44,298 bases of DNA, from contig JAUSJN010000021.1 of NCBI GenBank assembly GCA_030647325.1, forward strand, positions 1-44,298. Direction: 5' to 3'. Position 1 is the stretch's first letter. Each line of letters starts with the position of its first letter. Of this stretch, positions 199-24,005 are shown piece after piece. The notes below the pieces were generated by a model, which saw only the letters and a program-made list of their open reading frames with translations, was not told the DNA's origin and did no database searches. The position numbers and the translations under genes are program-made. The DNA comes from Nanobdellota archaeon (GTDB taxonomy: Archaea; Nanobdellota; Nanobdellia; Woesearchaeales; GW2011-AR9).

Positions 199-963
199 CT
201 AATTCATCTCAAAATCCAATCCAGCTTTATACTGCACCGGCACAAACTTCCCTTTTTCAAACACAGCATATTTCTGCGGACTTTCTATACAGAAAGCAAC
301 TTTCCTTCCCTGCTCTGCAAATTGTTCTTGTTTGCAACTACCAAACTTCCAGTATGAAGGTTTCACTTTCTCTAAACAGTCCTGAAGCTGTGGTGCAGAT
401 CTACATTCATTCACTAACTTCTTCGCTTCATCCTGTAATTTGAAATATTCATCGAAATCATAATCTACATCAACTCTAAAGCCTGGATTAAGAGTATAGT
501 ATTGTTCATTTTTCTTGCCCAAAAGCACCTCTCTATCAGTCTTGCCGATCAACTCTTTACCTTGGCGGGATAGGATAAAACTAGCCTCCTTATCGTGCTT
601 TTTATACAAGGTATTAAACTGCTCATTGACTTCCTGATCTACATTGAGGAAACAAAAATCCTTACCTTTATTCCAATAAGTAACTTCTTCTACAGTGCCG
701 CAGGAAGGTGTATCTGTAAATCCGCCCTTAGAAGCCAAAGACAAGACCGTTTTCCTTCCAATCTCCAGGGCTACCTGATCACGGTCCGCCAACTGCTTTT
801 CTGCTTCTACAAAATTATAGTGCAGGAAATCCAACTGCCAGGTTCCCTTTGGTTTAACCCCAAATTCTACTGGAGAGAGTACCGCAAACGCTAAAGCAAA
901 GATGACCACGATCCCGATCCAGTGAAATAACGCGCCTTTTTTTGATTTCATTATGTTATCCAA
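199..963 (-). CDS. Pilin-like / N-terminally anchored protein (KSKKG|ALFHW...)
   Basis: 254-aa ORF; N-terminal KSKKG followed by a ~20-aa hydrophobic helix, then an extracellular-type domain with Cys; overlaps the upstream gene by 8 nt. Confidence 0.75.
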   Translation of the reverse strand: MDNIMKSKKGALFHWIGIVVIFALAFAVLSPVEFGVKPKGTWQLDFLHYNFVEAEKQLADRDQVALEIGRKTVLSLASKGGFTDTPSCGTVEEVTYWNKGKDFCFLNVDQEVNEQFNTLYKKHDKEASFILSRQGKELIGKTDREVLLGKKNEQYYTLNPGFRVDVDYDFDEYFKLQDEAKKLVNECRSAPQLQDCLEKVKPSYWKFGSCKQEQFAEQGRKVAFCIESPQKYAVFEKGKFVPVQYKAGLDFEMN

Positions 964-1471
964 ATAGCTTGATCACAATATTTTTTTTATTTCCTATGCC
1001 ATCTATATTAGTTAAATACAATGCTCCCTTCTCGTTACCCAAAAAGACTACATTGTTGTAGGATAATAACGGTTCCGGCTCCTCTTCCGTCCCATAGGAG
1101 ACAGAATCATATACTGCTACCCCTCCTTCTAGGTGCTGTTGCTCAAAATAGGTCTGCATCTTTTCTGTGAAAAGAGTTTCATCATCGGCGTTCACGGCTG
1201 AAATAATGAGGTCTTTCATCATCACTTCTTTGTTATCCAGTAAAGCCGGCGAATTGACCAGATTCAAAAGCGCTTCCTGGCCGTAGAAGGAAGCTATCCT
1301 TTCCGAAGTTCGCTCCGCCTTGTCGCTGGCATCGGTACGCAAAATCACCACCGCAAAAAATCCCAGCATGGAAAGTATCAATACAAAGGAAAGTAGATCA
1401 GTAAAATCATCCATAAGGCCCTTTTTATTTTTAATCAGTGATCCTGCCATCTTAAATCCTCGTCTGAACAT
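956..1471 (-). CDS. Pilin-like / N-terminally anchored protein
   Basis: 171-aa ORF; IKNKKG|LMDDFTDLLSFVLILSMLGFFAVVIL class III-like signal; overlaps both neighbours. Confidence 0.72.
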   Translation of the reverse strand: MFRRGFKMAGSLIKNKKGLMDDFTDLLSFVLILSMLGFFAVVILRTDASDKAERTSERIASFYGQEALLNLVNSPALLDNKEVMMKDLIISAVNADDETLFTEKMQTYFEQQHLEGGVAVYDSVSYGTEEEPEPLLSYNNVVFLGNEKGALYLTNIDGIGNKKNIVIKLFG

Positions 1472-1943
1472 TTATCACTAATCGCGTAGGTTCAAATCTA
1501 TCTCCATTTCGTACCAAGACTTGCTTATACAAGGTAAAATCCACTTTGTTGAAGAAATTATTACTCGTCAGCAATTTCTTCTTTCCATCAATATTCGGTG
1601 TATAACCTTCCAACTCCAAGGCAAAATTGAAATCGGTAAAACCTTTTTCCGGTTCAGTGCGGTAACATTTGTCCATCCGTTCCTGAGTAAATTTCTGCAG
1701 ATCAATGACTCCGGCAAAGATTCTTCCGGTAGTTGGATCTTGATATGTAAAACATTCTGGGGTGTTGACAAAACGCAGGCTGATAAGCTCCGCACGCAGC
1801 TCCGAGGGAACTTCCACTAACGATCCTTTATATTGCGGAAGAAGGACAAACATCAGGATAAGTGCGGCTACCACCACCATGAACGCAGCAATACCCCAAT
1901 ACATCTGTTTCCTGGTCAGATCAAATATATCATCTTCTCCCAT
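1452..1943 (-). CDS. N-terminally anchored protein of the pilin-like cluster
   Basis: 163-aa ORF; TRKQMYWGIAAFMVVVAALILMFVLL N-terminal helix; overlaps the downstream gene by 20 nt. Confidence 0.68.
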   Translation of the reverse strand: MGEDDIFDLTRKQMYWGIAAFMVVVAALILMFVLLPQYKGSLVEVPSELRAELISLRFVNTPECFTYQDPTTGRIFAGVIDLQKFTQERMDKCYRTEPEKGFTDFNFALELEGYTPNIDGKKKLLTSNNFFNKVDFTLYKQVLVRNGDRFEPTRLVINVQTRI

Positions 1944-1945
1944 AT

Positions 1946-2395
1946 TTATTTCTCCGGCATCTCTTCAGCAGCTGCCGTGATCAAGCATTCCTGCAATACT
2001 ATTTTTTTCTTTTCTTTAGCTAGGCATAAACGATCCCGGTCTTCCAAAGTCCCGAAAGCCTGATATCCTTCTGGAAGAGAGAAATATCGGATGATTTTCT
2101 GATGTTCTCCTTCTCCTTTGATGAAAACAGTTATGGATCCGGAACTGAGAATAAACGTGTACTGAGAAACATTACCTGGATATTGTACCGTTGCCTCTCC
2201 GGGAGTTCCTATTAACGTGTCTACCATCATCTTGATGTCATCAGCGATGACGATTTTATTAGTCGTTTCCGAACTGGCAAATTTGGAAGCCATGCTAAAG
2301 ATCAAAGCAGCAGAAATAAGGATAATGATGATCTCCAGGATCATCATCAAGGTGGTGATCCCTCTTTTATTCATATTCCTATTCATTGGTTCCAC
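1946..2395 (-). CDS. Pilin-like / N-terminally anchored protein
   Basis: 149-aa ORF; MNKRG|ITTLMMILEIIIILISAALIFSMASKF. Confidence 0.72.
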   Translation of the reverse strand: MEPMNRNMNKRGITTLMMILEIIIILISAALIFSMASKFASSETTNKIVIADDIKMMVDTLIGTPGEATVQYPGNVSQYTFILSSGSITVFIKGEGEHQKIIRYFSLPEGYQAFGTLEDRDRLCLAKEKKKIVLQECLITAAAEEMPEK

Positions 2396-3062
2396 CGTAA
2401 TTGCCGATTAAACGAATGGTATCACTACCTTCTTTGATAAAATATAATACTGACCTTCTATCTATTTCATAATAGCTATACACCACTTTTGATTTTTTAG
2501 CCAAAGCCCGCTCGATCATAAAACCATCAGAACAGGTATATGATTCCACTAATGTTCCTTTACCGATGCTGCAGGTCTCTACTTCTAGATTATAATCAAG
2601 GTCTGTACAGACAACTCTCTTAGGAGTGACCGTAATCTTTCCTTTGAGTTCAAGTTCGATGACACTGACTTTTTCGAAAAGAGTGGTATCAAAATCTGTA
2701 TCCCGGAAAAGGCATAAGCAGTTTTTGGAATCATCACATTGTCCAGGTTTAAGTAGATGGATAGAATAATCATTATTAGGAAGTTTTGCGTCGACCTCGA
2801 CAACGACTTCTTGCGCAGCTTTTTCAAAATATACTATCGCTGTCTCTTCGTCCATGATCAAAAGATCGCTCTTCTGTTCCCCCACCTGCCCGAGCTCAGC
2901 AAAGGTGTCCAATTCCTTCACGAATTCAGAAAAATTATCCTGTGCCTGCTCACTGGTCCTAAAAATACCGGAAACAAGATAACAGGCAGGGATGAAAATC
3001 ATCAGGCATAAGAGTAAGGAAATCAAAAACTGCACCATGATCCCTCTCTTGTTGTGCCACAT
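2379..3062 (-). CDS. Pilin-like / N-terminally anchored Cys-containing protein
   Basis: 227-aa ORF; HNKRG|IMVQFLISLLLCLMIFIPACYLVSG; overlaps the downstream gene by 17 nt. Confidence 0.72.
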   Translation of the reverse strand: MWHNKRGIMVQFLISLLLCLMIFIPACYLVSGIFRTSEQAQDNFSEFVKELDTFAELGQVGEQKSDLLIMDEETAIVYFEKAAQEVVVEVDAKLPNNDYSIHLLKPGQCDDSKNCLCLFRDTDFDTTLFEKVSVIELELKGKITVTPKRVVCTDLDYNLEVETCSIGKGTLVESYTCSDGFMIERALAKKSKVVYSYYEIDRRSVLYFIKEGSDTIRLIGNYGGTNE

Positions 3063-3941
3063 TTATTGTTTCCACCACTCGCCACTTAGGCATTTGTAGA
3101 TTTGGTTGTTGCGTAAAATATGGTTTATCCCTTCCTGAGCTTCTCTACAACCATACCAAAATCCTTGATCGCAAATTAAAGATCCGTATTCTGGTTTTGA
3201 TTTCCAGGCCCATTGGAAAAGATTTTTTGGATCACCTTCATTAGGTTTTGACTGATAATCATTGGTTAGATCAACTTTTAGAGGAAGATAACCTTGCAGA
3301 GGAATGATCCTGCCATCAGAAACTTTAGCCTGGCCGCAGTCATTTCCTTCATTATCATCCTCACTGCCCATGATCCAGCATCCATCTTTGAGAGGCTGAA
3401 GATTGAATTCATCATCGCAATCATTATCTTCGCTATGACAATCTACTGCTCCCGTACCGCCGACGAAACCGGTGCAGGCCAACCTGATCGTTCCATCTTG
3501 TGGAAGATCAGGATCATTATCATCATCCCCAAATATTTCTATTGATTGATACCTCTTGGATTGGACTGCTTGTTGAGGTTCTTCTTCGCCACCATGTTCT
3601 ACGGTAATTGTTCCGACGGTAACTTCTCCAGTTATTCCGCAAGGAGGCTCGCTGTTGTACTTCTTTACATCCTCTTGTTTTTGCTCTTCAGCAAATGCGG
3701 CTGGACAGCCATCATACATGGGATCACCAAAAGTGCAAGGGCATTTGTCAAAGAAATTACGGGTGCCATCTTTATCGGCATCACCTTGGATTCCGCCAAT
3801 TTGTGTTCCAACTATCTCACTCTGCTGGAAAAGTCTGGGAACAAGAATTATCACCAAGAGGATAACGATCACTGCTAAAACAATAAGTATCTCTCCTAAA
3901 AGGCCGATCGGGCTTACTCCTTTTTTATTTAGTCGCATCAT
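3063..3941 (-). CDS. Pilin-like anchored protein with TSP3-like Ca-binding repeat and a Cys/Trp-rich C-terminal module
   Basis: 292-aa ORF; LNKKG|VSPIGLLGEILIVLAVIVILLVIILV, then DADKDGTRNFFDKCPCTFGDPMYDGC (TSP3-like); the C-terminal module resembles part of the 1782-aa protein. Confidence 0.75.
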   Translation of the reverse strand: MMRLNKKGVSPIGLLGEILIVLAVIVILLVIILVPRLFQQSEIVGTQIGGIQGDADKDGTRNFFDKCPCTFGDPMYDGCPAAFAEEQKQEDVKKYNSEPPCGITGEVTVGTITVEHGGEEEPQQAVQSKRYQSIEIFGDDDNDPDLPQDGTIRLACTGFVGGTGAVDCHSEDNDCDDEFNLQPLKDGCWIMGSEDDNEGNDCGQAKVSDGRIIPLQGYLPLKVDLTNDYQSKPNEGDPKNLFQWAWKSKPEYGSLICDQGFWYGCREAQEGINHILRNNQIYKCLSGEWWKQ

Positions 3942-3953
3942 CTCACCTTATTG

Positions 3954-4850
3954 CTATTGTCCGGCAATATCCTCTTCTCCACATAAATCTTGAGCAGTAT
4001 CCAACGTGCCAACATAGATGGAACTGACTTCCCGCTCACTATACGCTTGTTCCACGTTATTGATGTAATCTGGATCAGTTAAATAAGCTTCCCGTCCTTC
4101 AGCGGCTAATCCTCCTGCTGCTCCTAAAAAGACCGCGCCGACAATCCCAGCAGGAGGAAAAAGAATCCCAGCTGCTGTTCCCAGAGCTGCTCCGGTCCAG
4201 AAGGTGCTTTGCTCCTTATTCTTAGGCATCATGGAAATAGCATAACCGTGCTGGGGTAAAATTTCCGGGACTGTAAATACTACTCTTCCCGGTCCGCCGT
4301 GTGCTTGGATGTAATCCAGGTATGTTTTGTTCACTTTAGCATACGTTTTGGTGCGTAAATATTCGTTGATCTCTGCTGCCTCGATAGGGCCGCCAGGAAT
4401 TTCATCCTGGTCGATCAATAGGGAATAGCAATTAAAACAATCATTTTTGCCTAAACCTTCCACCGACAGGGCTTTTAGATATCCTGCGCTGCTAAAACCG
4501 TCTAAGATCTCATCATATCTTCCTTCATTGAACATCCACCAGCAGCGCGCCATCTTATCTGAAACTTCCTTGAGAACTTGTTCCCGCGATCCTGAAATTT
4601 TTTTATCGATAGTCCGGCATAACGGCGGCGCTAATTTCAGTTCAAATCCGGAAGTCTCGCCGACCTGGATCGCAGTTCTTGCCCTTTGAGCGATAGAAGT
4701 CTGGCACAACAATTCTGCTTCCAGATCAGTGGTTTTAGAGGCAAACTGGCCCAAAAGACCGGCGATCAAAAAGAATGAGATCAGCAATAGCGATGCAGTT
4801 ATGATAAACTCCATCCCCAATCCTTTTTTTGATCTTATAGTTAACTGCAT
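3954..4850 (-). CDS. Pilin-like anchored protein with internal Gly/Ala-rich hydrophobic segment
   Basis: 298-aa ORF; RSKKG|LGMEFIITASLLLISFFLIAGLLGQF; internal TGAALGTAAGILFPPAGIVGAVFLGAAGGLAAE. Confidence 0.73.
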   Translation of the reverse strand: MQLTIRSKKGLGMEFIITASLLLISFFLIAGLLGQFASKTTDLEAELLCQTSIAQRARTAIQVGETSGFELKLAPPLCRTIDKKISGSREQVLKEVSDKMARCWWMFNEGRYDEILDGFSSAGYLKALSVEGLGKNDCFNCYSLLIDQDEIPGGPIEAAEINEYLRTKTYAKVNKTYLDYIQAHGGPGRVVFTVPEILPQHGYAISMMPKNKEQSTFWTGAALGTAAGILFPPAGIVGAVFLGAAGGLAAEGREAYLTDPDYINNVEQAYSEREVSSIYVGTLDTAQDLCGEEDIAGQ

Positions 4851-5626
4851 AGTTGCAGTTCTCCTTGATCTATCCTAAATTGGATTGAATTTTTCTCGCC
4901 TAGGCTAAAATAATCATTATCTATGCCGTCATCATCATAATTTGCGACCTTATTGGTGGGGAAGAAACAGACATGCTGGCCATCCGGCGTAAATAACCAG
5001 CCCTCATTTTCAAAGTTATCATTTTCATCATTCACCGTACCAGAATCAAATCCTCCAACACTGATCCTATTCCCATCAGCGCCGGAAGTTCCATACCAGA
5101 TAGTGAGCGAGCTTGCCTCTTTAAAATAAGGATAGTATAATTCTTTTTCGTCTATAAAATGAGTGAAAAAGTTTTTACTTATCCCTCCTTCCCCTGCGAT
5201 AACACACGGTTTCAGCCCTGGGAATTCAGCCGCTAGATCAGCGATGGTCTGTTTTCCTCCTGCTCCGCCAGAGACGGTCAAAAGAGTTTTATCACCACGT
5301 AGATCAAATTCTAAAGAAGTTCCTCCTTCACCCAGATCAGACATAGTTCCAGCATTAGAAAAGCAATTTTTATTTCCTAGCTTTAGCATTCCTTTGATAG
5401 TGTCTCCAAGCAGTATAATCTCTTCTCTATGCGCATCCGGAATGGTCACTTCTGCTTTTTGCTCTTCTAAACCTACGGAAATTTTTGGAAGGACATCTTT
5501 TGCTCCCAAGATCAATCCTTTTGCCTTGTCAAAAAGTCCCTCTTCCGGCCGGAATAATATAGCCAGCACCACGATCAAAACCACTAAGGGTATGAGAAAC
5601 ATGAACACTTTTGAAGCGGTTCCCAT
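4841..5626 (-). CDS. N-terminally anchored extracellular protein of the cluster
   Basis: 261-aa ORF; MGTASKVFMFLIPLVVLIVVLAILFRPEEG; overlaps the downstream gene by 10 nt. Confidence 0.7.
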   Translation of the reverse strand: MGTASKVFMFLIPLVVLIVVLAILFRPEEGLFDKAKGLILGAKDVLPKISVGLEEQKAEVTIPDAHREEIILLGDTIKGMLKLGNKNCFSNAGTMSDLGEGGTSLEFDLRGDKTLLTVSGGAGGKQTIADLAAEFPGLKPCVIAGEGGISKNFFTHFIDEKELYYPYFKEASSLTIWYGTSGADGNRISVGGFDSGTVNDENDNFENEGWLFTPDGQHVCFFPTNKVANYDDDGIDNDYFSLGEKNSIQFRIDQGELQLCS

Positions 5627-5628
5627 GC

Positions 5629-5775
5629 TTAAAAAAGGTTGAAGAATTTCTCTAGCAACCCCGCTCCCTCTCCTTTAAGTACAAAATAAAGCATCCCGGC
5701 CGCGAAGAAAAAAACTAAGAGAATGATGATCCACACGATGTATTCAAGTTCCGTCGCTCCTCTTTGTGATGCCAT
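5629..5775 (-). CDS. Minimal type IV pilin-like protein (48 aa; not in supplied ORF track)
   Basis: Hand translation of the reverse strand: MASQRGATELEYIVWIIILLVFFFAAGMLYFVLKGEGAGLLEKFFNLF*. R-G| then ATELE puts Glu at +5, followed by a hydrophobic helix. Stop lies 2 nt before the next start codon (5626). Confidence 0.7.
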   Translation of the reverse strand: MASQRGATELEYIVWIIILLVFFFAAGMLYFVLKGEGAGLLEKFFNLF

Positions 5776-5792
5776 GCCAATTTTTCGACCAT

Positions 5793-5921
5793 TCACGGTG
5801 ATAACGGTGCAAATTTCTTTTGCAGTCCGTACACGATAATCCCAAACAACAGCAACGCCAGGATGATGATGACGATCAAAGCTATCGTTTCATTCTGCAT
5901 CGCTTTTTTATGCCACTTCAT
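5793..5921 (-). CDS. Minimal pilin-like / single-helix protein (42 aa; not in supplied ORF track)
   Basis: Hand translation: MKWHKKAMQNETIALIVIIILALLLFGIIVYGLQKKFAPLSP*. KKA + polar/Glu + hydrophobic helix; fits between genes ending at 5926 and starting at 5775. Confidence 0.6.
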   Translation of the reverse strand: MKWHKKAMQNETIALIVIIILALLLFGIIVYGLQKKFAPLSP

Positions 5922-5925
5922 GGTA

Positions 5926-6243
5926 CTACGCAACAGCTTTTTTAATACCTAAACAGCATTCTTGACTTTCTCCGCATTCAAACAATGTTGAGGGAGTGCC
6001 TCCTTCGACGTCACGGCAAGTATCTATATCGACACATTTCCCGCCGGTCGTTTCGCACGCTGACAGCCCAGCTTCCGCTTTCTGTGTGCCACGGCCGAAG
6101 AAGGTAAGCAGCACTACTACTACAATTAACACCAGCAGTGCACCGGCGATGATCCACCACATGTCCGCTTCACCTTTCTTCGTTATCGTCATAGCTTGTA
6201 TATCTTCTGCCGTATTCAGCTTACTTAACTTTGCCACACGCAA
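5926..6243 (-). CDS. Small pilin-like Cys-rich protein
   Basis: 105-aa ORF (true start possibly the internal Met of MTITKKGEADMWW); ITKKG|EADMWWIIAGALLVLIVVVVLLTFF then six Cys in a short tail (CETTGGKCVDIDTC...CGESQECC). Confidence 0.7.
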   Translation of the reverse strand: MRVAKLSKLNTAEDIQAMTITKKGEADMWWIIAGALLVLIVVVVLLTFFGRGTQKAEAGLSACETTGGKCVDIDTCRDVEGGTPSTLFECGESQECCLGIKKAVA

Positions 6244-6596
6244 CCGGATCCAGACTCACAAGATTCCTTGCTGTCGCTGAATTCTTTACATCTGTCAATT
6301 TCATCCCTGAAGCTTGATCTTGCAGCATCCCGTTCCTCTTCTGAACTTGTGCCATCATATTGGCTCATGAATGCATTTTCAAAAGATTCTCCCGGTCGGC
6401 ATTGGCCGTAGAAAATTCGCATCTTGAATAACTCAGTTTTAGTCTCTTCACCTACTTTTTGAGTGAATTTACCGGTTTGGCCAGTAAAAATAACCACTAA
6501 AACAACCAGAACGATCAACGCTAAAGCAGCAACAATAATAACATTTATCGGCAAACCTTGCCCTTTCCTTGAAAACATCATTCTCACACACCTCAT
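6225..6596 (-). CDS. Small pilin-like protein
   Basis: 123-aa ORF; FSRKG|QGLPINVIIVAALALIVLVVLVVIF; overlaps the downstream gene by 19 nt; TATA-like ATTTATATAT upstream. Confidence 0.7.
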   Translation of the reverse strand: MRCVRMMFSRKGQGLPINVIIVAALALIVLVVLVVIFTGQTGKFTQKVGEETKTELFKMRIFYGQCRPGESFENAFMSQYDGTSSEEERDAARSSFRDEIDRCKEFSDSKESCESGSGCVWQS

Positions 6597-6691
6597 TTTG
6601 AAACTATAGCACCTGCTATTTCCTTTGAACCAAGAACAAAATTAGATATATAAATGTTGCGAAGATTCTAAGTTAATAAAAATTATTTTTT

Positions 6692-6785
6692 AGCGCCGAT
6701 GGCGCAAGACAAACCGGGGGTTGTCCCTTACGGGGTGGTTTGTAGGGCACGGTAACGTGACCGTCTTGCCGCCATGATGGCGTGC
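6692..6785. ncRNA. GC-rich, highly foldable intergenic element; candidate structured RNA or REP-like palindrome (strand unresolved)
   Basis: Paired segments seen by eye: CAAGAC(6705-6710)/GTCTTG(6763-6768), AAACC(6711-6715)/GGTTT(6737-6741), CACG-GTAA-CGTG (6748-6759, GNRA loop on + strand), GCGCC-GAT-GGCGC (6693-6705), CGCCA-TGA-TGGCG (6770-6782). Markedly GC-rich between AT-rich flanks; no ORF. Confidence 0.45.
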
Positions 6786-6811
6786 AGGAAAGAATAATCA
6801 TCATAACGTCT

Positions 6812-7399
6812 TCAATCACACAAATAAAGAGCATTCTCCACTAATCCCGCTTCTGTGTTTATCGGGAACAATCCTGAACTATCCCGTTCCTTCCATTTAG
6901 GACATCCGCCCACCACAATAGGCTCAATGATATCAATAGCTTCCTCGCCCTGGAACGGAATCAGCTGGGAATGAAATTCATAATTCTTATTCCAACTCCC
7001 TAACGTATTTTGCAAGGAATAGGTGATCATCTCATGTAAAAAAGCACAGCTATGCAATACTTTCCCCGATATAGGTCCTATGCATTGGTATATAGAGATA
7101 TCTACATCCCTATACCTGGCACAATCTTCGATTACATCACCCCCTATTTTTGGCGCTCCCTGGCTTAAAGAATAACAGGCCGCTTTCTCGCTGATGGTTG
7201 TTTTCATCAGCGCGCTCATGGTGCTATATGCTAACCCTTTACGGGTAAATATCTTTTTTTGTGGTTCAGATTTCAAGGCAAAGGTAGCCATAAACAGCAT
7301 GCCTAAAGCGATCAAGATAACGATCACCACCAACCCGATCGCTTCCATCTGTCCCCGAACATCTTTTTTCATTTTCATATTATCCTTAGGTCTCATCAT
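6812..7399 (-). CDS. Pilin-like anchored protein
   Basis: 195-aa ORF; KKDVRG|QMEAIGLVVIVILIALGMLFMATFAL (Q at +1); 4-nt overlap with the upstream gene. Confidence 0.72.
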   Translation of the reverse strand: MMRPKDNMKMKKDVRGQMEAIGLVVIVILIALGMLFMATFALKSEPQKKIFTRKGLAYSTMSALMKTTISEKAACYSLSQGAPKIGGDVIEDCARYRDVDISIYQCIGPISGKVLHSCAFLHEMITYSLQNTLGSWNKNYEFHSQLIPFQGEEAIDIIEPIVVGGCPKWKERDSSGLFPINTEAGLVENALYLCD

Positions 7400-7923
7400 G
7401 AATATACCGTCACCGAAACATATCCGAATCCATATTCCGGCTGATTGATCCCCGCTAATTCATCGCGTAAGGTAACCACAAAAAAGGTAGGTTCTTTCCG
7501 AGTGAATTCCGGCTTTGGCTTATCATACAATATCCAGGTCTGATTTTCAGGATAGGTCTCCTGCACCTCAATAGTCGCATAGGAAAATATCTCAAAATAA
7601 TACTCATCTAGATACTGCTGCATGGTCTTCTGGGTCGCATTCAGTTTTAAGACGTCAAAACAATTATCTTCCGGTTCCGCTTCGCCCCGGCTGCAGATCA
7701 ATTCCGGCATGAATAATGCTTTCAGGGTGCTCTCCATGGCCCGTGCGGCCAGCAATTCTTCCTGCTTCTCCTGAAAAGCGATCTTCTGGTAACGAAAATA
7801 AAAAACTACTCCGAACAAGAGCAGCACAAAAAATATGAAAAGGATAGCGATTGTCTCGGTCATCTGCAGCTGTCCTTTGCGCGTCATTCTTCTGTTCATT
7901 CTTTTTTGTTCTATAGTCTTCAT
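7396..7923 (-). CDS. Pilin-like anchored protein
   Basis: 175-aa ORF; MTRKG|QLQMTETIAILFIFFVLLLFGVVFYF. Confidence 0.73.
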   Translation of the reverse strand: MKTIEQKRMNRRMTRKGQLQMTETIAILFIFFVLLLFGVVFYFRYQKIAFQEKQEELLAARAMESTLKALFMPELICSRGEAEPEDNCFDVLKLNATQKTMQQYLDEYYFEIFSYATIEVQETYPENQTWILYDKPKPEFTRKEPTFFVVTLRDELAGINQPEYGFGYVSVTVYS

Positions 7924-7935
7924 CTTCCTTCCTCA

Positions 7936-9087
7936 TCAATACAATGAAACACTGCAGGAGATCCGTAATTTATCATTGATAATCTTGAGCTGGTCCGCTG
8001 CGACAATCAGATCTACGCAAGAGTCTTGCTGCAATCGGCAGGCGGTGGTGGCATGCGATAACTTTGTCAACGCGTCCAGCGCATTGTCATTATACTGTGC
8101 TAAATGTCCTAAGCACTCACTAGAGCTGTCCACTTCATAATATTTGATCAGTTCCCCTATTTTTCCACCTGCTTCACCGAAGGCTATCTCTTCTCCTCCA
8201 TACACTTTCGTCAATAATTCCAGTCGTCTAAAAGTTTTACCCATGTTACACCAATACATCTGGTCATCGGCAGCGAAGATCGCTGCATATTTAGCTGCAT
8301 CTTTTTCCCCGGGCAAGGAAATCACCCGTACTGACTCCAGGTTCAGTTTCTGCCAGCTCGAACCTTGCTTTTGATAGAAATCAACTTGATTTGCTCCAGT
8401 AAATACCACCGCGCTGACTTCCGCATCTTCAAACGACTGCAATTGCGCAGGAACGCTGGAACCGGGAATGATCGTGCCGCTGGTATCGATGATCCGTACT
8501 TGTAAATTTTCTTCCGGCTCGATCTGCTGCAATCCTGAAACATAGATCCGTTCAATACCTTCTGTTGAATTCAAGAACTCATTCACGAACTCCGCATCGT
8601 TTCCCATGACATAATACTTAATGGTGGAAGGGATGACCAACAAAAAATCCATGACTTTAAAGGGCATGCCATAGGGCAAGCTCCAGGTCACGATCCTTGA
8701 ACTCTGTATCTCGTGAGGAGCAAAGATAGCATCTATAGAATTTTGCGTCCGAGCTGGCCGATCTTTGATGCCGAACTCGCTTACGCCATCTATGCATTGA
8801 AAATACAAAGTATAGTCAGCCAAACCGCTGGCATCGATGAAATTTTTGGTCTTTTCTGAAACGCCGGCGCCGGCAAGGATAGAACTCATCACTTCCACTA
8901 CTTCACCGGAAAGCCGTTCTTCTGAAATTGCTTTCTGCCGTGTTACTAATCCAACAAAAAACAGCAGGATCACTGTACCGGCGATCAGGATATACACCCA
9001 ATTAAAAGTGACCTCCATCTGGGCTTTCCTTCCTATAGGAAGGTCACGAACGAAGTGACTTGACTTTCCAGATATTTTTCTGCTCAT
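7936..9087 (-). CDS. Pilin-like anchored protein, larger ectodomain
   Basis: 383-aa ORF; IGRKA|QMEVTFNWVYILIAGTVILLFFVGLV. Confidence 0.73.
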   Translation of the reverse strand: MSRKISGKSSHFVRDLPIGRKAQMEVTFNWVYILIAGTVILLFFVGLVTRQKAISEERLSGEVVEVMSSILAGAGVSEKTKNFIDASGLADYTLYFQCIDGVSEFGIKDRPARTQNSIDAIFAPHEIQSSRIVTWSLPYGMPFKVMDFLLVIPSTIKYYVMGNDAEFVNEFLNSTEGIERIYVSGLQQIEPEENLQVRIIDTSGTIIPGSSVPAQLQSFEDAEVSAVVFTGANQVDFYQKQGSSWQKLNLESVRVISLPGEKDAAKYAAIFAADDQMYWCNMGKTFRRLELLTKVYGGEEIAFGEAGGKIGELIKYYEVDSSSECLGHLAQYNDNALDALTKLSHATTACRLQQDSCVDLIVAADQLKIINDKLRISCSVSLY

Positions 9088-9093
9088 GCTACC

Positions 9094-9630
9094 TCAACCT
9101 TCAGAAGGCAATTCAGAGAGCAGTGTCTTATCTCCTCTTCCTTCCATCACGATACTGAAAGCTCCCTGCTTGATAGGGATGCATAAGAAATTCTTTCCGT
9201 TTTCTTCTTCCATGCTGACTTTATATACTTTAATTTTAACCGGCGCTGGAGGAGTGAGAAAAACATTTTCATCTACTCCATCATACCATTTTCCTGAAGT
9301 AGAAGCGACTTCCCAGACACTGCAGGCAATCTGGTCGGATTGACATAGTTCGGGATCATATGGCTTATCAAGATCCACAAAACAGATCTGAGTATAGGTT
9401 ACAGGAGTAGAATATCTCTCTACCCGTACCGAACCGAATTCCGTATATATTTTTTTTATATCACTTTCTAATCCGGTTTTGAACTGCACAAAAGCGACAT
9501 CCTCTCCACTTTTCAAAAATCCACTTATAGCGCGATACCCAAACATCAAAATCAAGGCAAAAGAAAGCGCAGCTATGATGAAAACAAAGACTTGTCCTAC
9601 TCCGACTCCTTTTTTATTCCTAAAAACCAT
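9094..9630 (-). CDS. Pilin-like anchored protein
   Basis: 178-aa ORF; RNKKG|VGVGQVFVFIIAALSFALILMFGY. Confidence 0.72.
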   Translation of the reverse strand: MVFRNKKGVGVGQVFVFIIAALSFALILMFGYRAISGFLKSGEDVAFVQFKTGLESDIKKIYTEFGSVRVERYSTPVTYTQICFVDLDKPYDPELCQSDQIACSVWEVASTSGKWYDGVDENVFLTPPAPVKIKVYKVSMEEENGKNFLCIPIKQGAFSIVMEGRGDKTLLSELPSEG

Positions 9631-15924: not shown

Positions 15925-15951
15925 CGTCCTCGTGATCTACTAAACTCTTTT

Positions 15952-15968
15952 GGTTTATAAATGTTGCT
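15952..15968 (-). promoter_or_regulatory. TATA-box-like promoter for the 2086-aa gene
   Basis: Reverse strand GCAACATTTATAAACC about 30-40 nt upstream of the ATG at 15924. Confidence 0.45.
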
Positions 15969-16018
15969 CGTAGTGAAGACGATAAAAAAGAGTAAACTCA
16001 ATTAAAAATTTAGGAGAT

Positions 16019-18586
16019 CTATGCATCTCCGGCACAACTATTATCAGCCTGGCAAACCCCATTAAATTTTCCATTAAAATTGCTGTCGCAGATCTGTCCT
16101 TCTGCCGTGCAGCCGCAGCTGAAATAAATGTCTGTCTCATCAAGAGCTTCCTCATCTCGGGCTATTTTATTGATATCAAAAGCCTTTACCTCTGCAGGCG
16201 GCCCGGTATAGGCGACCGGCTCTTGGCAGAAATCAGAACAGCCAAAATTTCCGTGGCACCAGCCCGCTTCTTCTCCTTCTCCGCTATATCCAAAAGCGAA
16301 AAGACCTGCGCATTTTACTTCGATATCGGTGCTGCAGCTGTCTTGTCCAGGATTGCCGCAGATTAAAATCTCTTCCTTCAGCTCATTTTTGAATTCGCCG
16401 TCGCAGATATTTCCCCTATTGCCGCTGCAGAATTGCTGCTGCACTTCTAATACATACCCTGATTTGAGGGAAGTGTAGGGCGTTCCAGGAAATTTCTTTG
16501 ATGTTACTTGACCATAACATCCAGGCTCTGGTTTGATGAAACATGGTTTAGGGTAGTCCGCACCGGCGATCTGCCAATCATTGGGGTTTTCTGCCACCCC
16601 GATGCAGCAGCTATGGGTCGCTTCAAAAGGATTGATCTCTTCGTCTTGGTCATAATCTCCTTGCAGGGTGTCAAAATTAAAATTAACATATTTCAGATCA
16701 TGATTTGGATAGGCCCAAGGGTGTTCTGGATTTCTATGCGGCACGCAGTCATTGACCACTACTTTGATTCCCTCCGATTCAACTTCATCAAATCGAGCGC
16801 AATATTGTGCACTGAAGGATAGATTTAATTCTCCTTTTTTGGTCGCTTCACGGAAATGGGGGAAAAATGATGCTGGCGAAAACAATTGGCTCCAGGCAGA
16901 AATATCATTCTTGTATCCGTTTAAAGTACAATCTTTTGACTTTGAACTTCCACCAGGGAAACTGAAACATCCCTCCTTTCCAGTTGATTGCAATCCTTCC
17001 GGAATCTTATAATCAAAATTTTCCGTTCCTACTCCGTCCTTGTTAGCATAGATCAATCTGATTTCCTGTGAATACGATGACGGCGGCGTGAAAGAATTCT
17101 CAGGGAATGCTACCTTCAGGAAGCTTGGATCTTCCCGCGATACTAAATACGCGTCTTGCATTGGAAAAATCTCGTTATAATTCTTCAACACTCCGTCCGA
17201 AGTCCTAAATTTATAGGCCATAAACAACGAAACTCCAAATTCCAACGGCCTGTCTATCAGTACGCGGACATCCTGCCAATCTTGCACGGCATGTTCATCA
17301 CGGGCATAGGTGCGGATAGTGTACGGTTCTTTTTTTTCCGCGATCTGCGTACGCGCATAACTCTGCCCTTCTGAATTGCCAAAGTCATCACTAAGGACAT
17401 TATAACTTACCCTATCTTCGTCAGGATCAAGCGCGGAAAGCGTGAGATTGATGATCCCTAATTCCTTATCACCTTTAATCACCAAATAATCGTACCCTGC
17501 TGCCGGACATTCAGATCTATGCACATAGTCCAATGCCGGCGGCCGATTTTGTCGTGCAAACTGGTAGGTATACAATTCTGGCGTGTTCAAAACACTGGAC
17601 GATTTAAAGATGAACATATCATCGCCGTTTGGTAAAGCCTGCCGGGACATTTCCATCCCCAAAGATGCATACTGTTCAGAAAACAAGGCCTGCTGGCAGA
17701 AAAAATAATTCTTGAAAGGAAGACAATTGCCGTTTTGCACTTCGATTTCATTTCCATAGGTAAAAGAAGTATTTAGTAAGGTAGTTTTGTTATAACTGAA
17801 ATCCACATACTGCCAATCCATTCTTAGAGGATAGCTTACTGCAGTATCAAGCAATGCTTTAAAACGGGTAGGGTAAAAGAAATCAAATTGTGATAAGTGA
17901 AAAAATTCTTCATTTCCTAAACTTAACTTTAAAGGATAGTTGACCTTCACATCAATGCCGGCGTCATGGATGCCCAAATTCAGATCAATTTCCTGAGATT
18001 CAAGCACTGCGCTGCTGGAGATATTTTCTTTGGTAAACTCGGCGACGCACCATACTGTCCTATTCAATAAAAAGCGTCGTAAATCATTTTGGATGGTGCT
18101 GGTTCGTAATTCCAATGAGCCAAAACCTACTTTGGTGTTCGGATAAGAATACTTACAAAATTCCTCAGGGCTGGATTCGTTGCTGCAGGGATAGGCATTT
18201 TCATATTCCAGATAAGGATCCCTGATCGTACCATAAAAAACCCGGTCATTGCCGACATTCACTCCGGAGATCCCTTCCTCAAAATGTCTCGTTCCACCGG
18301 GTTGGTCGCTCCATAATCTTCCCTGCTTTCCGATAAGGATCAATCCTTTCTCCAACTCATCGGTAAGGCAATCTTCAACAAAAATACGTAAGGCTTCCTT
18401 CTTGAAGGTCTTGGTGAGGGTTTTTTCCTGGATCTCCTGCAGCTGCCCTTTTTTAACTCCTGCGCTTAAGCTGAAGACAAAAATAAAGACAAAAAGAATT
18501 AACAGGCCCAGAATCATAAATACTGTGATCTGGGCTGATCGGGAAGGAGGAATAGTTCTAACTCTATTGGTCCTCTTTTTGTACAT
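16019..18586 (-). CDS. Large N-terminally anchored (class III-like) surface protein with Ig/cadherin-like and Cys-rich regions
   Basis: 855-aa ORF; PPSRSA|QITVFMILGLLILFVFIFVF; LTLSALDPDEDRVSYNV... Ig/cadherin-like; Cys-rich C-terminus. Confidence 0.8.
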   Translation of the reverse strand: MYKKRTNRVRTIPPSRSAQITVFMILGLLILFVFIFVFSLSAGVKKGQLQEIQEKTLTKTFKKEALRIFVEDCLTDELEKGLILIGKQGRLWSDQPGGTRHFEEGISGVNVGNDRVFYGTIRDPYLEYENAYPCSNESSPEEFCKYSYPNTKVGFGSLELRTSTIQNDLRRFLLNRTVWCVAEFTKENISSSAVLESQEIDLNLGIHDAGIDVKVNYPLKLSLGNEEFFHLSQFDFFYPTRFKALLDTAVSYPLRMDWQYVDFSYNKTTLLNTSFTYGNEIEVQNGNCLPFKNYFFCQQALFSEQYASLGMEMSRQALPNGDDMFIFKSSSVLNTPELYTYQFARQNRPPALDYVHRSECPAAGYDYLVIKGDKELGIINLTLSALDPDEDRVSYNVLSDDFGNSEGQSYARTQIAEKKEPYTIRTYARDEHAVQDWQDVRVLIDRPLEFGVSLFMAYKFRTSDGVLKNYNEIFPMQDAYLVSREDPSFLKVAFPENSFTPPSSYSQEIRLIYANKDGVGTENFDYKIPEGLQSTGKEGCFSFPGGSSKSKDCTLNGYKNDISAWSQLFSPASFFPHFREATKKGELNLSFSAQYCARFDEVESEGIKVVVNDCVPHRNPEHPWAYPNHDLKYVNFNFDTLQGDYDQDEEINPFEATHSCCIGVAENPNDWQIAGADYPKPCFIKPEPGCYGQVTSKKFPGTPYTSLKSGYVLEVQQQFCSGNRGNICDGEFKNELKEEILICGNPGQDSCSTDIEVKCAGLFAFGYSGEGEEAGWCHGNFGCSDFCQEPVAYTGPPAEVKAFDINKIARDEEALDETDIYFSCGCTAEGQICDSNFNGKFNGVCQADNSCAGDA

Positions 18587-18656
18587 AGAGAAAAGAAATT
18601 TTTGAAACTTATAAATCTATTCTGGGAGAAGTCAACGTCGTAATTTAATCGAAAAT

Positions 18657-21600
18657 CTAACTGCTCTCGCCGATCCGCAGCTTCGCCGTCATTTGCGGCC
18701 AGAAGAATTCTAATCCTTCATTTATCACTACTTTCTGGATGGTATCATTGACGGCGCAATGTATTTTCTCTATGCCGGAAGCTTGCTCCAGCAGCTCCAG
18801 CTGTAATTCTGGCGGAACTTTGATATTCTTGACATATTCACATACAGGAGTATCAAAGTTTTGATATTCAGCAACCAACGTTTGCTTCACGCCAGGGAAG
18901 ATCTCTTCTACTGCACGAACCTTTTTACCGTCAACATCCGCTAGGTAGATATTTCGGAAATTTTGCGCCTGGGTGACAAAGGTCTTTTCTGCGAGAAGGC
19001 CGGAACCAAAGAGATTCTCAAACCATTTCACAATTTTATCGACTACGCCCGGTTCTAATTGTATCCCTTCCCGGGCAAAGATTATCGCATTCAATCCATC
19101 AGAATGGTATAAGTCTGCGCTGCTGGGAAACTCTAATCCTTGTAGATTACATTCTATGAAATCGCTTCCGCTTCCTTGACAGACCTGGCTTAATTGTTCC
19201 TGCGGGATATTTAAAGAAACTAGGAAAGATTTTGGATCATTGATTTTCTTATTGAGAGTCGTGGCAAAGGCTACTTTGAACTGGCCGCCATCTTTATACT
19301 GCAATACACAAACATTATTGATGCAGGTGTTCTGGCCGTCGGGTACTAATCTCTTGCCCTGTGGATCTTTAACGTTGTTAAAACAGGTTGGTAATACTTG
19401 CGGCTGGGCCGGCTTTTGCAGGCTTTGTTGAAGTGTCTGCTGTTGCTTCTGGGTCACTAAAAATTCCCCACCCAGATAATTCTCGTTATTTCCTAGGTCT
19501 AGCAATGCTTCCCTATACGGAGAGCAGTACAGCACATATTCATCATTTTCCGCTACTTCCAATAACTTAGTCGCTAAAAATTTAGTCCTGCTGGTCCAGT
19601 TGCCCTGATTACAGTAATTATCAAAAATGTATTCGCTGTCGCTGATACAGATGGGATACTCGCCGTCATAGAAACTTTCTGCGGTATTCTCTGCTTTTCC
19701 TGAACCTAAGACAAAGCACTCATTTTCCTGCGGGCAGAATCCCCATTGCTGACTATTCCAGTCAAATTTCAATACAGAACGCTTCCATTCTCCCTCGATG
19801 CAGCGATAATCCCTTCCATCAGCGATATGTTCCGTCACCGTGGTCAACGAACTCATCGGCTCTACACAGGCATAGCCGTTCCAACAATAATTATTTGGAC
19901 AGCACGCTGCGCCTGATCGAGCATCTTGCAGAGGCCCAAGCTCAGGATGCGATTGATAGGAATATTCAGCTGGACCTAATACATCAACCACTTGCAGCGA
20001 TGGTTTTTCTACCTCACAGGGGCCGGTGAATTCTACAATGACGTAGGAAGCATCACTGGTATTAAACTGCGGTAACGCTGCGAACTGGCTGTTGCCATTT
20101 TTGTCGACTAGAGCTATCGTGGTCGTACATTCCTGCGCGGCGCTGAAATAAAGATCAACTGATGATGGGACCGAAATCCGTTCTGAGCGCAGCTTTTGAT
20201 TATTTCCCAGAGTCACTTTGTTATCTTTCACAAAACTGCTCTTTTCATCTGCTACTGCCTGATTAGTATTGACTAAAACTTCCCAATATGGTATTTTCGT
20301 GGCTGATGTTGCAAATTCTGTATTGGGCAGGAAATTGCGCGCCGGCACTACGGAAGTGGATTGGTTCAGAGATGAAGCTGATTTAATTTGTTCTTTTAAC
20401 ACTAATTCTACGGTTTCATAATATGCAGAGATATTTTGGCCATCTTCCGGCTTCTGCAGGGGATCGGCATAACCGACATGAGTCAATCCCGCTTCACTCC
20501 AGGTATTGACGATGGTAAATGCATCTTTATTATTCTCTTCTTCATGCACTTCGCTGAATGAGCAGGATTTATCTCCGATGACTGCGCAGTATTGCAGGTT
20601 CTTCTCATTGTCAAGATGAGTGATGAAATCTGCAGCCCGGCAGCCGTAAAATCCTACATCTTTGGTTGATTCCTCGCCTTCGTTATAATAAAGTACTTGT
20701 TGGGCGATCCTTTTTACCTTGAGATTAGCATATTCTGAAAATTCTTGATCTGGCTGGGTTATAGGCGTTTCATCCGAAGCTAATTTTCCGGTGACATAAT
20801 ACAATTCGTATAGATCGGGATGCAGGTTAGTCACTTTATATGGGGCATTCCCGGGAAGCGGGAATATACACTCAGTTTCGCTGCAGGCATAGGTTACTTT
20901 TTGGGTGACTGGCGTACTGGAAGATGAGGGGTTGCTGATAGGGAAGAACTGGTTTGGTTTTAATTTAGCGACCACAGAAAGAGGATGCGCCCATACATCT
21001 AAAAGCTCTTCTTTGCTGAGATATTGCGCCGGTCCGGCGAGCTGAAAGTTTTCGTCATCGGGATCTGTCGCTGACTGTACTTCCTTACCGATCGGTTCAT
21101 CAGTCACCCGATCATAAAAGAACAATTCTACCGGTGAGTTAGGATTATCACTCAAAGAGTCAGTAAACCATAATTTGGTTATGCCCCTATATTCCATCGG
21201 AAGCTCTGACCCGAAGTCTTCTGGGATGATGAAACTGCATAATCCAGTCGAAGTGTCTCCTACTTCTAATTTACTTGGGAAAAGATCTTCCTCATTACAT
21301 TTTAAGGTCCCTTCTTTCAGCGGAACATCATCCTCAGTAGTATCGGGACTTCCTTCATCAAAGACACGATAGTGCAAAGTGATTATCGGTAAGTCGATGG
21401 GACTATATTCTACTTCAAATTCTGTTTCCTGTGATTCAACTTCAAACTCAACGTCCATGACCGTATCGCCAGAAGCGATGGTCTGTGAATTCCAACAGCC
21501 GTAATAGGTCAGCTCTTCGGTTGAAGCGCCTTCCGGCAGATATCCTGTGCTCAGGCCAGCATAATATTCGTTCTTGGCGTTACCGCAGCAGTTCGCGGCC

Positions 21601-24005
21601 GGCTCAAATTCGCTTACTTCTTGGTCCTCACCTAACCATGCTTCTTCACCATATAAGGTCTGACAGAGATTTTCTCCGGTAATTCCCTGGTCAGGATTTC
21701 CTGCATCAGCGTCTTGTATCCAGGTGCTGGAAGCAGCTGAATCTTGACCAGAACAAAGTTGGCTTGGCAACGCAGCATCATCGCTGGTCAAGTAAATATT
21801 GCGGACCTCGATCAGATTATCGCTATCCGAACTTATCGTAAAACCCTGGATCGCCTTATAATCCTTATCTTTGATAGGCACTTGTACATGCATAAAAGTC
21901 GTTAAGTCTGAAAGCGGTGTATTGATAACATAGCCTAAAACATTTCCTTCAAAATAAATCACTTCTTCATCATTAACTTCTGGACCGACCAGTTTTAATT
22001 TTATTTTAAGGGGAAGTTGAAGATCCTTTAATTCTACCGGACTTCCTTCCGCATCTTTCACAAAACGAACCATGAAATTAAGATAATCATACCCGGTAAA
22101 ATCCAAAAAACCTTTGCCATAATATTTTTTATAGATCGCATTATATTTTATGGGGATTGTTTTGTCTATTATGGATTCTCTAAGGTAATCTCCTTCTGCT
22201 GTCGGCTCTTCTGGCAGCTCATCCAGCGGTGAAAGGATAGAGAGAGGAAGGGTATAAAGCCCTTCACCGGTGTAACGTCCCTTGACGCTTGGATTTTCCC
22301 GCTTCTCCCAATCGCCCGTACATTCTGCCCAAGCCCACCTATTCCCTTCTTGATAACAATAAAATCTATTGCTCAATTCTTCTTCTAAGCCTCCTGCCAA
22401 TGCCGAGGCTTCAAATGTTTTTTCGGCCTGCGCATCACATATCAACCAATCATCAGCATTCGAAACCGCATCAAAAGGAATTTCGCCGGGTCTCTTTATC
22501 GTGAATACCTTAAACAAAGTATTTGCGCCGGCCGCATCTACCCAGCACCAATTCTTATCTCCACAGCCGCTGTTGTCAAATATCTCTTCAATTCCGTTTC
22601 CTTCAAAATCTTTTTCCGTACTTACAAAATCTTTGTTATCAGTAAGACAGACAAAACTCTGTTGAGAATCAAGATCTGTTTTAACTACTCCGGCATCTTT
22701 TGCTCCTTCATATCCGCAGCAGTAACCGCTTTTAGAACCGCCTTCTTCTATTTCTATCCAATCGAATTCTTCGTTGTAGATATTTTTTGCACTGGTTGAG
22801 GCTTTATCGCATAACCATACTTCAGGATCGCCGCAGGTACTAGTTTCGGTACAAGAGTCACCTTCTTTTGGAGATGGTTCTTCTAATTCTGGCCCAATAT
22901 ACTTACAGACTCCGGTCGCTTCCTCCGAACTGGTGGGCATGATACATTCCTCTCCTTCTTCACAAAGGATAGATTCAGAACATACCGCATTACTCTCGCT
23001 GCAATGTCCTACAAAATCCTGTTCGCAAGACGCTTGGTTTAGATGACAGCTGTCAGCCGTATTTCCTATTTCCTCATCAAGCTTTTCTTTCACGCCTGGA
23101 CCGCCGCAGTCATTGTTGATCCCATCTCCGCAGACTTCGGCAGCACCAGCATTTATACAGATAGCACATTGGGAAAATTCGCCCGGATTCGCTTCACAGG
23201 CTCCTCTGGCCATCTTCCTGATATCTTCGACAGTTGTTCCTGCCGGAGTATCTTCCGCTGTCAGAGTAGGACATTCTACTCCTCTTCCAGCTAGATAATC
23301 ATCAGAAACATCATCATCACAATCTTCACTGGTTGTATATCCATCTCCATCTTGGTCGGTAGTCCATTCCCAAATTCCAGCTGGATTGTATCTACATTCA
23401 TAGGTCGCTCCATTGGCGACTATTTTATTTCCTTCATGTTCATCATTGTCGCAGCGCGCCCAGAAACCGGTATCGGTACAGATGTATTCCCATGGATCTT
23501 CAATGAACAGCGTATCAAAAAGCCACTTTTCATTACTACCACTAGCCGCAATATCATCGGCTAAAGATGTTATACTTTTACTCTCAGGACCAGCGCCGTT
23601 TCCCCACCTTGATCCTGGTTTTACACTTGCCACACCGCAGTCATCTGAGTCATATTCGTCATAATCCCCAACAAAAAACCAACAGCCACCTGCTGCAGGT
23701 TGGACCTGTGCATTAATGACGCATTCTTCATTCACTGTGAGGGGAATCTGGCCTGTCTCTGCTACCGCAAAGCTTCTACACGATCCTTGTTCGTTCTCAC
23801 CTGGTTCCGGATCATTACAATTTACAAAAGCTGTCCCTGCCGCGCCCGGACCTACATCACAATAAGGACAACTGGTTACTCCCACCGCAATAGAGACACA
23901 CTGTTCAGCTGCACAATGTTCTGTCCACCCAGCAAATCCAGAGAAACTAAATAGGCTAAAAAGTAAAATTATTACTAATAGAAACCCTCTTTTTTCACCG
24001 ATCAT
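18657..24005 (-). CDS. Giant secreted Cys-rich multidomain protein with MopE-like metal-binding motif
   Basis: 1782-aa ORF; MIGEKRGFLLVIILLFSLFSFSGFAG signal; DQDGDGYTTSEDCDDD...AEVCGDGINNDCGG (MopE-type); repeated C-x-G-x-W patterns; no obvious C-terminal TM. Confidence 0.82.
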   Translation of the reverse strand: MIGEKRGFLLVIILLFSLFSFSGFAGWTEHCAAEQCVSIAVGVTSCPYCDVGPGAAGTAFVNCNDPEPGENEQGSCRSFAVAETGQIPLTVNEECVINAQVQPAAGGCWFFVGDYDEYDSDDCGVASVKPGSRWGNGAGPESKSITSLADDIAASGSNEKWLFDTLFIEDPWEYICTDTGFWARCDNDEHEGNKIVANGATYECRYNPAGIWEWTTDQDGDGYTTSEDCDDDVSDDYLAGRGVECPTLTAEDTPAGTTVEDIRKMARGACEANPGEFSQCAICINAGAAEVCGDGINNDCGGPGVKEKLDEEIGNTADSCHLNQASCEQDFVGHCSESNAVCSESILCEEGEECIMPTSSEEATGVCKYIGPELEEPSPKEGDSCTETSTCGDPEVWLCDKASTSAKNIYNEEFDWIEIEEGGSKSGYCCGYEGAKDAGVVKTDLDSQQSFVCLTDNKDFVSTEKDFEGNGIEEIFDNSGCGDKNWCWVDAAGANTLFKVFTIKRPGEIPFDAVSNADDWLICDAQAEKTFEASALAGGLEEELSNRFYCYQEGNRWAWAECTGDWEKRENPSVKGRYTGEGLYTLPLSILSPLDELPEEPTAEGDYLRESIIDKTIPIKYNAIYKKYYGKGFLDFTGYDYLNFMVRFVKDAEGSPVELKDLQLPLKIKLKLVGPEVNDEEVIYFEGNVLGYVINTPLSDLTTFMHVQVPIKDKDYKAIQGFTISSDSDNLIEVRNIYLTSDDAALPSQLCSGQDSAASSTWIQDADAGNPDQGITGENLCQTLYGEEAWLGEDQEVSEFEPAANCCGNAKNEYYAGLSTGYLPEGASTEELTYYGCWNSQTIASGDTVMDVEFEVESQETEFEVEYSPIDLPIITLHYRVFDEGSPDTTEDDVPLKEGTLKCNEEDLFPSKLEVGDTSTGLCSFIIPEDFGSELPMEYRGITKLWFTDSLSDNPNSPVELFFYDRVTDEPIGKEVQSATDPDDENFQLAGPAQYLSKEELLDVWAHPLSVVAKLKPNQFFPISNPSSSSTPVTQKVTYACSETECIFPLPGNAPYKVTNLHPDLYELYYVTGKLASDETPITQPDQEFSEYANLKVKRIAQQVLYYNEGEESTKDVGFYGCRAADFITHLDNEKNLQYCAVIGDKSCSFSEVHEEENNKDAFTIVNTWSEAGLTHVGYADPLQKPEDGQNISAYYETVELVLKEQIKSASSLNQSTSVVPARNFLPNTEFATSATKIPYWEVLVNTNQAVADEKSSFVKDNKVTLGNNQKLRSERISVPSSVDLYFSAAQECTTTIALVDKNGNSQFAALPQFNTSDASYVIVEFTGPCEVEKPSLQVVDVLGPAEYSYQSHPELGPLQDARSGAACCPNNYCWNGYACVEPMSSLTTVTEHIADGRDYRCIEGEWKRSVLKFDWNSQQWGFCPQENECFVLGSGKAENTAESFYDGEYPICISDSEYIFDNYCNQGNWTSRTKFLATKLLEVAENDEYVLYCSPYREALLDLGNNENYLGGEFLVTQKQQQTLQQSLQKPAQPQVLPTCFNNVKDPQGKRLVPDGQNTCINNVCVLQYKDGGQFKVAFATTLNKKINDPKSFLVSLNIPQEQLSQVCQGSGSDFIECNLQGLEFPSSADLYHSDGLNAIIFAREGIQLEPGVVDKIVKWFENLFGSGLLAEKTFVTQAQNFRNIYLADVDGKKVRAVEEIFPGVKQTLVAEYQNFDTPVCEYVKNIKVPPELQLELLEQASGIEKIHCAVNDTIQKVVINEGLEFFWPQMTAKLRIGESS

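Follow-up and report, generated by a model that had tools for sequence, protein, structure and literature searches.

A conserved array of pilin-like and giant cysteine-rich surface proteins as a candidate tip and priming module of a type IV filament in Woesearchaeota

Contig JAUSJN010000021.1 of a Nanobdellota archaeon of the order Woesearchaeales (assembly GCA_030647325.1; 44,298 nucleotides, hereafter the window) carries at positions 199-24005 an uninterrupted minus-strand array of 19 genes, which by analogy with known pili we read as the tip/priming and specialisation module, that is minor pilins together with a giant adhesin, of a Woesearchaeota type IV filament; we assign this reading a probability of about 0.55. 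The window is the whole of contig G000:C69 in a 958-kb, 74-contig genome that is ~90% complete, and its relatives in protein searches were metagenome-assembled genomes of Woesearchaeota/Nanoarchaeota, in agreement with the DPANN origin suggested by a preliminary description made from the letters of the window. The co-directional cluster reported there is indeed continuous: the genes follow one another in the order listed below, mostly with few-base overlaps or gaps under ~100 bp, and encode, as described, many different single-copy subunits. Fifteen of the products have N-termini of the type IV-pilin (class III-like) kind; of the other four, p3 and p8 are also anchored N-terminally and two are Sec-exported giants. 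The characterization of the anchored proteins as mostly pilin-like thus fits the fifteen and not p3 and p8, whose transmembrane (TM) segment comes without a clear class III site. The giant cysteine-rich proteins, of which three had been counted, are real, with the corrections that big1 and big2 start with KRG but look Sec-exported and that p16 is itself a class III-like pilin; a second micro open reading frame (ORF), p9b (5793-5921, 42 aa), had been missed.

18657..24005, minus strand: big2, Sec-exported surface protein of 1782 aa with 68 Cys, first gene of the array; N-terminal hydrophobic segment only
16019..18586, minus strand: p16, class III-like pilin head (RSA/QITVF) of ~250 conserved residues plus a large variable Cys-rich C-terminal module
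9664..15924, minus strand: big1, 2086 aa, 78 Cys, Sec signal, two CarboxypepD_reg domains, C-terminal TM segment 1900-1918 and a basic cytosolic tail
9094..9630, minus strand: p15, core minor pilin kept to class level; AlphaFold2 model
7936..9087, minus strand: p14, core minor pilin of 383 aa, the most widely detected member; AlphaFold2 model
7396..7923, minus strand: p13, core minor pilin, RKG/QLQMTETIA
6812..7399, minus strand: p12, core minor pilin, VRG/QMEAIGL
6225..6596, minus strand: p11, small class III-like pilin with Cys
5926..6192, minus strand: p10, small Cys-rich class III-like pilin; likely start MTITKKG
5793..5921, minus strand: p9b, headless micropilin of 42 aa; family consensus KKG-VDWxSPxTLV..LKGRLLP
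5629..5775, minus strand: p9a, headless micropilin of 48 aa, SQRG/ATELEYIVW; family consensus KKG/MEMWQLVLIIL..LLDKLGGLL
4841..5626, minus strand: p8, N-terminally anchored ectodomain protein without a class III site; conserved CVIAG and ICFFPT motifs
3954..4850, minus strand: p7, class III-like pilin of 298 aa with conserved cysteines
3063..3941, minus strand: p6, class III-like pilin of 292 aa with 12 Cys
2379..3062, minus strand: p5, class III-like pilin of 227 aa
1946..2395, minus strand: p4, class III-like pilin, NKRG/ITT
1452..1943, minus strand: p3, N-terminally anchored, class III site unclear
956..1471, minus strand: p2, class III-like pilin, NKKG/LMDD
199..951, minus strand: p1, class III-like pilin, last conserved gene of the array

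Class III-like starts were called from sequence pattern and hydropathy, as (K/R)(K/R)(G/A/S) followed by a hydrophobic segment, and the scans found such a start in p1, p2, p4-p7, p9a, p9b and p10-p16. By this pattern, 15 of the 19 genes carry the prepilin class III signal of type IV filaments, with a basic leader, G/A/S and a hydrophobic helix. When a strict pattern was applied (two or more K/R, then G or A, then a hydrophobic segment), it was found in 15 of the 18 array genes screened versus 6/299 genes in the rest of the genome, represented by 306 kb of sampled stretches (Fisher p ~2e-18), and the clustering of class III-like starts in the array is not due to chance. The strict set of fifteen includes both giants, and we nevertheless arrive at 15/19 pilins because the starts of the giants look Sec-like, while p9a and p16, which carry a site, fall outside the strict pattern. 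The site is kept in at least 88% of the orthologues of p15, p14, p13, p12, p11, p10, p9a, p7, p5, p4, p2 and p1; p8 has an N-terminal TM segment and the site in 2/30 orthologues, and p3, also with an N-terminal TM segment, is ambiguous (14/26). Judged from these sequence features, the pilin nature of the array products is well supported and very probable.

The AlphaFold2 models of p14 and p15 display the long N-terminal alpha1 helix and globular head of type IV filament subunits. In p14 (predicted local distance difference test score, pLDDT, 90.5) a single long helix, residues 30-76 (47 residues), is followed by a beta head and an extra helical domain, and in p15 (pLDDT 92.4) a single long helix, residues 7-63 (57 residues), by a beta domain. 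Foldseek and PDB sequence searches with these two proteins yielded no reliable match. Pfam and NCBIfam searches of the pilins found no families, and the mutual similarity of the subunits is slight; weak matches of p2 to Ribosomal_S24e and of p5 to Pmp3 were dismissed as chance hits on TM or short segments. The two micropilins, ~40-50 aa long, reach scarcely beyond leader and helix and have counterparts at the equivalent position in most family loci, where they were recounted by position because iterative p9b profiles drifted into p13. A Flp-like 'EY' at +5/+6 of the window p9a is not kept in relatives and was not used.

The neighbourhood comparison that the preliminary description had proposed, carried out among 148 genomes of the phylum, revealed conserved synteny, of most of the array within the family and of a core up to class level. 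A search with p16 gave strong matches in 20/20 sampled family members and N-terminal matches in many other families across the order and class. In the neighbourhoods of 19 relatives, most of the array recurs in the same order and orientation, in ~12-15 genera, with several loci stopping at contig ends; p16 is separate from the rest of the array in three genomes (G022, G052, G062). Orthologues of big2, which has no Pfam match, occupy the equivalent position in ~12 relatives. Profiles built from family members, of which those for p6 and p1 drifted in part, recovered eleven order-level loci in other families, with p16-big1-p15-p14-p13-p12 and many downstream pilins, and seven class-level loci in other lineages, with the core p16-giant-p15-p14-p13-p12, some members being undetected in some loci. 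As the most widely detected member, p14 was found in 118/148 genomes. In the class-level loci, the gene after p12 encodes a methanococcal-type S-layer protein (PF05124); by coordinate comparison it lies ~3.5-5 kb past p14 on the same strand in at least 13 of the 27 class-level genomes with p14, several of the others ending at contig ends. The array was not seen to include a PF05124 gene in Woesearchaeales; in most of these genomes such a gene lies elsewhere. Class-level loci such as L173 (G074), L181 (G057) and L185 (G142) also have, directly or closely before the p16-giant core, a gene that reads as a PCNA-like sliding clamp.

Comparison of these loci indicated which parts vary. The length of p16 is 250-282 aa in class-level loci and 394-2225 aa across the order, and while its pilin head is conserved, its C-terminal part ranges from absent (class level) to ~2000 residues, as expected of a modular tip pilin. 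The giant beside it is Sec-exported in class-level loci, of ~1100-1370 aa with >50 Cys and without a C-terminal TM segment; in the order and the family it is larger, and a part that carries a C-terminal TM segment and a basic tail is often fused to it or comes after it. Many relatives have a ~300-420-aa protein with the giant's two ends between p16 and big1, which is missing in the window. Order-level p1 orthologues contain an inserted M23 peptidase domain, detected in 4/7 at Pfam E <1e-12, with both HxGxD and HLHFG motifs in three; no such domain was found in p1 of the family members checked, the window included. With its additional pilins, its pair of headless micropilins and, in some relatives, a pilin that bears an M23 peptidase, the predicted module is enlarged in Woesearchaeales. 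Elsewhere in the same genome, a p16 paralogue of 795 aa stands with Sec-type giants of 1080 and 830 aa (L072:1778-9925, G000:C47), possibly as a second, exchangeable tip set.

The preliminary description had placed the assembly engine outside the window, and we located its three parts, ATPase, A24 peptidase and, by remote similarity, platform, on other contigs of the same genome. The genome has one T2SSE ATPase (G000:C41, PF00437), whose nearest PDB structures are A. fulgidus GspE, CpaF and FlaI, and which reaches 125 bits against a cut-off of 550 with the archaellum FlaI model NF058587 and so does not qualify as such. It has one A24 prepilin peptidase (G000:C50, PF01478, E 4.4e-16), adjoined by two further pilin-like genes, one of which passes the strict pattern. 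A PF00482 (T2SSF) search of the genome returned no platform, a lack at the Pfam level that is misleading because a TadC-like protein is present: weak sub-threshold PF00482 matches recur in a conserved ~730-aa protein of relatives, and an alignment profile made from it detected a TadC-like platform in 146/148 phylum genomes, including G000:C30. One platform orthologue matched PF00482 at E 3.5e-4, below the curated cut-off, and the TadC of a relative, itself PF00482-positive, aligned with the profile over 72 columns with 33% identity; the platform assignment, drawn from remote sequence similarity, is less certain than those of the ATPase and the peptidase. Since the engine is not adjacent to the array in the genomes compared and this genome shows just one such ATPase, we link the two by exclusion and infer that the CpaF/TadC-like engine drives the array. 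The outcomes that the preliminary description had named as speaking against its proposal (ordinary Sec signals only, no synteny, no prepilin peptidase and ATPase) were not observed.

Several observations were made around engine genes in these genomes. In G105 the platform and ATPase are 2 kb apart, and two coiled-coil proteins adjoin the ATPase. A few family members also possess a second, PF00482-positive TadB/TadC pair beside an ATPase-sized gene (L087, G095:C22), and by these matches an additional Tad-like system is present in some relatives. Immediately upstream of the platform gene of the window's genome is a series of surface proteins that are anchored or Sec-type; two LamG-type lectin domains and DUF4215 repeats occur in one of them (L184:3117-11775, G000:C30). 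A short tail motif, approximately GxxDxxIxxxLxxxGWxxxxIxxAf, is common to surface proteins with a C-terminal TM segment, and the coiled-coil protein next to the ATPase starts with a similar motif, a hint that they may have a cytosolic partner in common (L184:7175-8056 and 10765-11775; L180/L181, G057:C1; L003:6653-7231).

We favour a tip/priming role because the six-gene core has the composition of a priming module and because p16 behaves like a modular tip pilin. Assembly of bacterial type IVa pili is primed by the giant PilY1 and four co-encoded minor pilins, which then act at the tip as the adhesin (PMC7541494). The PilY1/FimU-PilVWX module resembles the core in that one giant surface protein is clustered with four minor pilins in a tip/priming role, but the array has the additional modular pilin p16, a C-terminal TM segment on big1 in the family and ~ten more pilins after it. 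The likeness is one of composition and architecture, as neither the PilY1 domains (C-terminal beta-propeller, vWFA) nor FimU/PilVWX homology gave a Pfam match in the array. In the Tad (Kil) pili of predatory Myxococcus, minor-pilin sets with variable terminal domains form interchangeable tips acting on prey (PMC12075869). With TadE/F/G and the Kil 'Tip' complexes the array shares a CpaF/TadC-type engine, variable C-terminal modules on minor pilins and duplicated tip sets; however, it has many more subunits and belongs to an archaeal S-layer envelope, and in the subunits tested there was no Pfam match to the Flp major pilin or to TadE/TadF/TadG, remote homology being possible. The array is thus probably not the self-contained new appendage of the preliminary description, since its core matches the architecture of a pilus tip/priming complex, with four or five minor pilins and a giant Cys-rich protein.

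Under the tip-module reading, the fifteen prepilins would enter the membrane, and the single detected A24 peptidase would cleave off their KKG/KKA leaders. On the TadC-like platform, p12-p15 and p16 would come together as a minor-pilin complex, to which the giant Cys-rich protein would be bound; the CpaF/FlaI-like ATPase would push this complex out, and p16 would display its variable Cys-rich module as the adhesin. The shaft might be formed or adapted by the micropilins p9a/p9b or by pilins encoded elsewhere, for example beside the peptidase; both tip formation and the choice of shaft subunit are put forward conditionally. The filament would then pass through the S-layer and attach to another cell, probably a host, where the M23 peptidase of p1 in some relatives could loosen a wall. 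That the module serves adhesion to host cells, suggested by lifestyle and analogy, we hold a little more tentatively, at just under even odds. Weighing against the tip-module reading are the following points: no major pilin was identified; known tip complexes have four or five pilins, far fewer than the fifteen here; two members of the array, p3 and p8, are no pilins; big1 of the family has a C-terminal TM segment and PilY1 does not; p14 and p15 have no PDB fold match at E 0.001 or better, hence no structural homology to known minor pilins; the engine genes were never adjacent to the array in genomes whose coordinates were compared; and 30/148 phylum genomes gave no p14 match.

The main rival is a non-filamentous surface assembly of the bindosome or pseudopilus kind. 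Here the engine would build, within or beneath the S-layer, a short heteromeric complex that serves to capture nutrients from the host or to secrete surface proteins. Different, mostly single-copy subunits with no obvious major pilin would suit such a complex, as would the membrane-anchored C-terminus of big1 and the S-layer gene that immediately follows the core in at least 13 genomes at class level. However, the ATPase is far under the cut-off of the bindosome BasE model NF053672 (42.6 vs 1000 bits), Pfam searches found no substrate-binding-protein domains in the subunits, and the core composition fits pilus priming modules; we consider this assembly rather unlikely. Less likely still is a lineage-wide heteromeric DPANN machine in which some fifteen different pilins, including two headless helices, would make up a short multi-subunit spike, anchored through the S-layer, in place of a homopolymer; it would dock to the host cell and, where the M23 pilin occurs, open the host wall locally. 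The S-layer gene next to the class-level core and the Cys-rich giants might instead point to a scaffold that ties the S-layer to the membrane with no type IV engine involved. This is improbable, given that a simple anchor would not need the class III-like sites kept in most orthologues, that a prepilin peptidase is present in the genome, and that the Woesearchaeales array showed no PF05124 gene, though one is present elsewhere in most of these genomes.

As type IV filaments that have minor pilins are capable of DNA uptake, a DNA-uptake pilus is conceivable in general terms; it is disfavoured, and very improbable, because ComEC was found in 0/40 family genomes with a profile that detects it in 10 bacterial control genomes. 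The uptake function raised in the preliminary description is likewise without support. Lastly, the absence of detectable Pfam families and the slight similarity among the subunits would also be seen if unrelated surface genes had come to lie together by coincidence, but the order of up to ~19 genes kept in relatives, and of six at class level, refutes this.

Parts of the tip-module picture have precedents in archaea. The type IV pilus-like loci of cluster-2 DPANN, Woesearchaeota included, with CpaF ATPase, TadC and coiled-coil proteins (Hamm 2024, PMC11291902) correspond to the engine neighbourhood of the present genomes (L003, L084); they are described as comprising coiled-coil proteins along with the engine, and in locus 1 also FlaF/PilA, in contrast to an engine-less pilin array. 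Signal-peptide-bearing unknown proteins of DPANN 'dark matter' islands were proposed to be diverse pilins (Makarova 2019, PMC6393860, Fig. 2A); going by their published description, FlaI and TadC within the locus served to identify those islands, and in this they differ from the array. Thermoproteales type IV pilus loci combine minor pilins with large S-layer-like proteins that are anchored by a single C-terminal TM segment and have conserved cysteines (Makarova 2016, PMC4858521), and in this resemble the array; they differ in containing the engine, in having fewer pilins and in belonging to other lineages. As far as the portions of the literature consulted extend, the DPANN engine loci (PMC11291902) and the proposal of DPANN pilin islands (PMC6393860) were already known, and we found no published account of the engine-less ordered array, its phylum-wide core, the S-layer neighbourhood, the M23 pilin or the micropilins.

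Beyond the array, the window has a small lipoprotein-like ORF (LGAALTACGD) at 24091-24456, on the same strand just upstream of big2. At 30315-41472 lies what reads as a replication island, with MCM, an OB-fold protein, Orc1/Cdc6 and PolD DP1 and DP2 side by side; the AT-rich gap at 34000-34837 upstream of Orc1/Cdc6 contains several inverted repeats and may be a replication origin. A SpoIIM-family membrane protein (33130-33999, PF01944, E 7e-17) belongs to a family with a proposed role in archaeal membrane remodelling (PMC5898192).

It is still an open question how DPANN archaea hold on to their hosts, and the majority of their surface genes lack annotation. The array described here is a conserved ordered gene set in most of the phylum's sampled genomes. 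Its core, which at class level lies beside an S-layer gene, comprises a giant, a modular pilin and four further pilins, and the set may now be placed together with the previously noted, pilin-poor engine. Surveys based on Pfam overlook the platform protein and the micropilins. If the array is the tip and specialisation module that we propose, it offers p16 and big1 as candidate tip adhesins, the M23-containing p1 of relatives as a candidate wall-opening subunit and p9a/p9b as candidates for the shaft.

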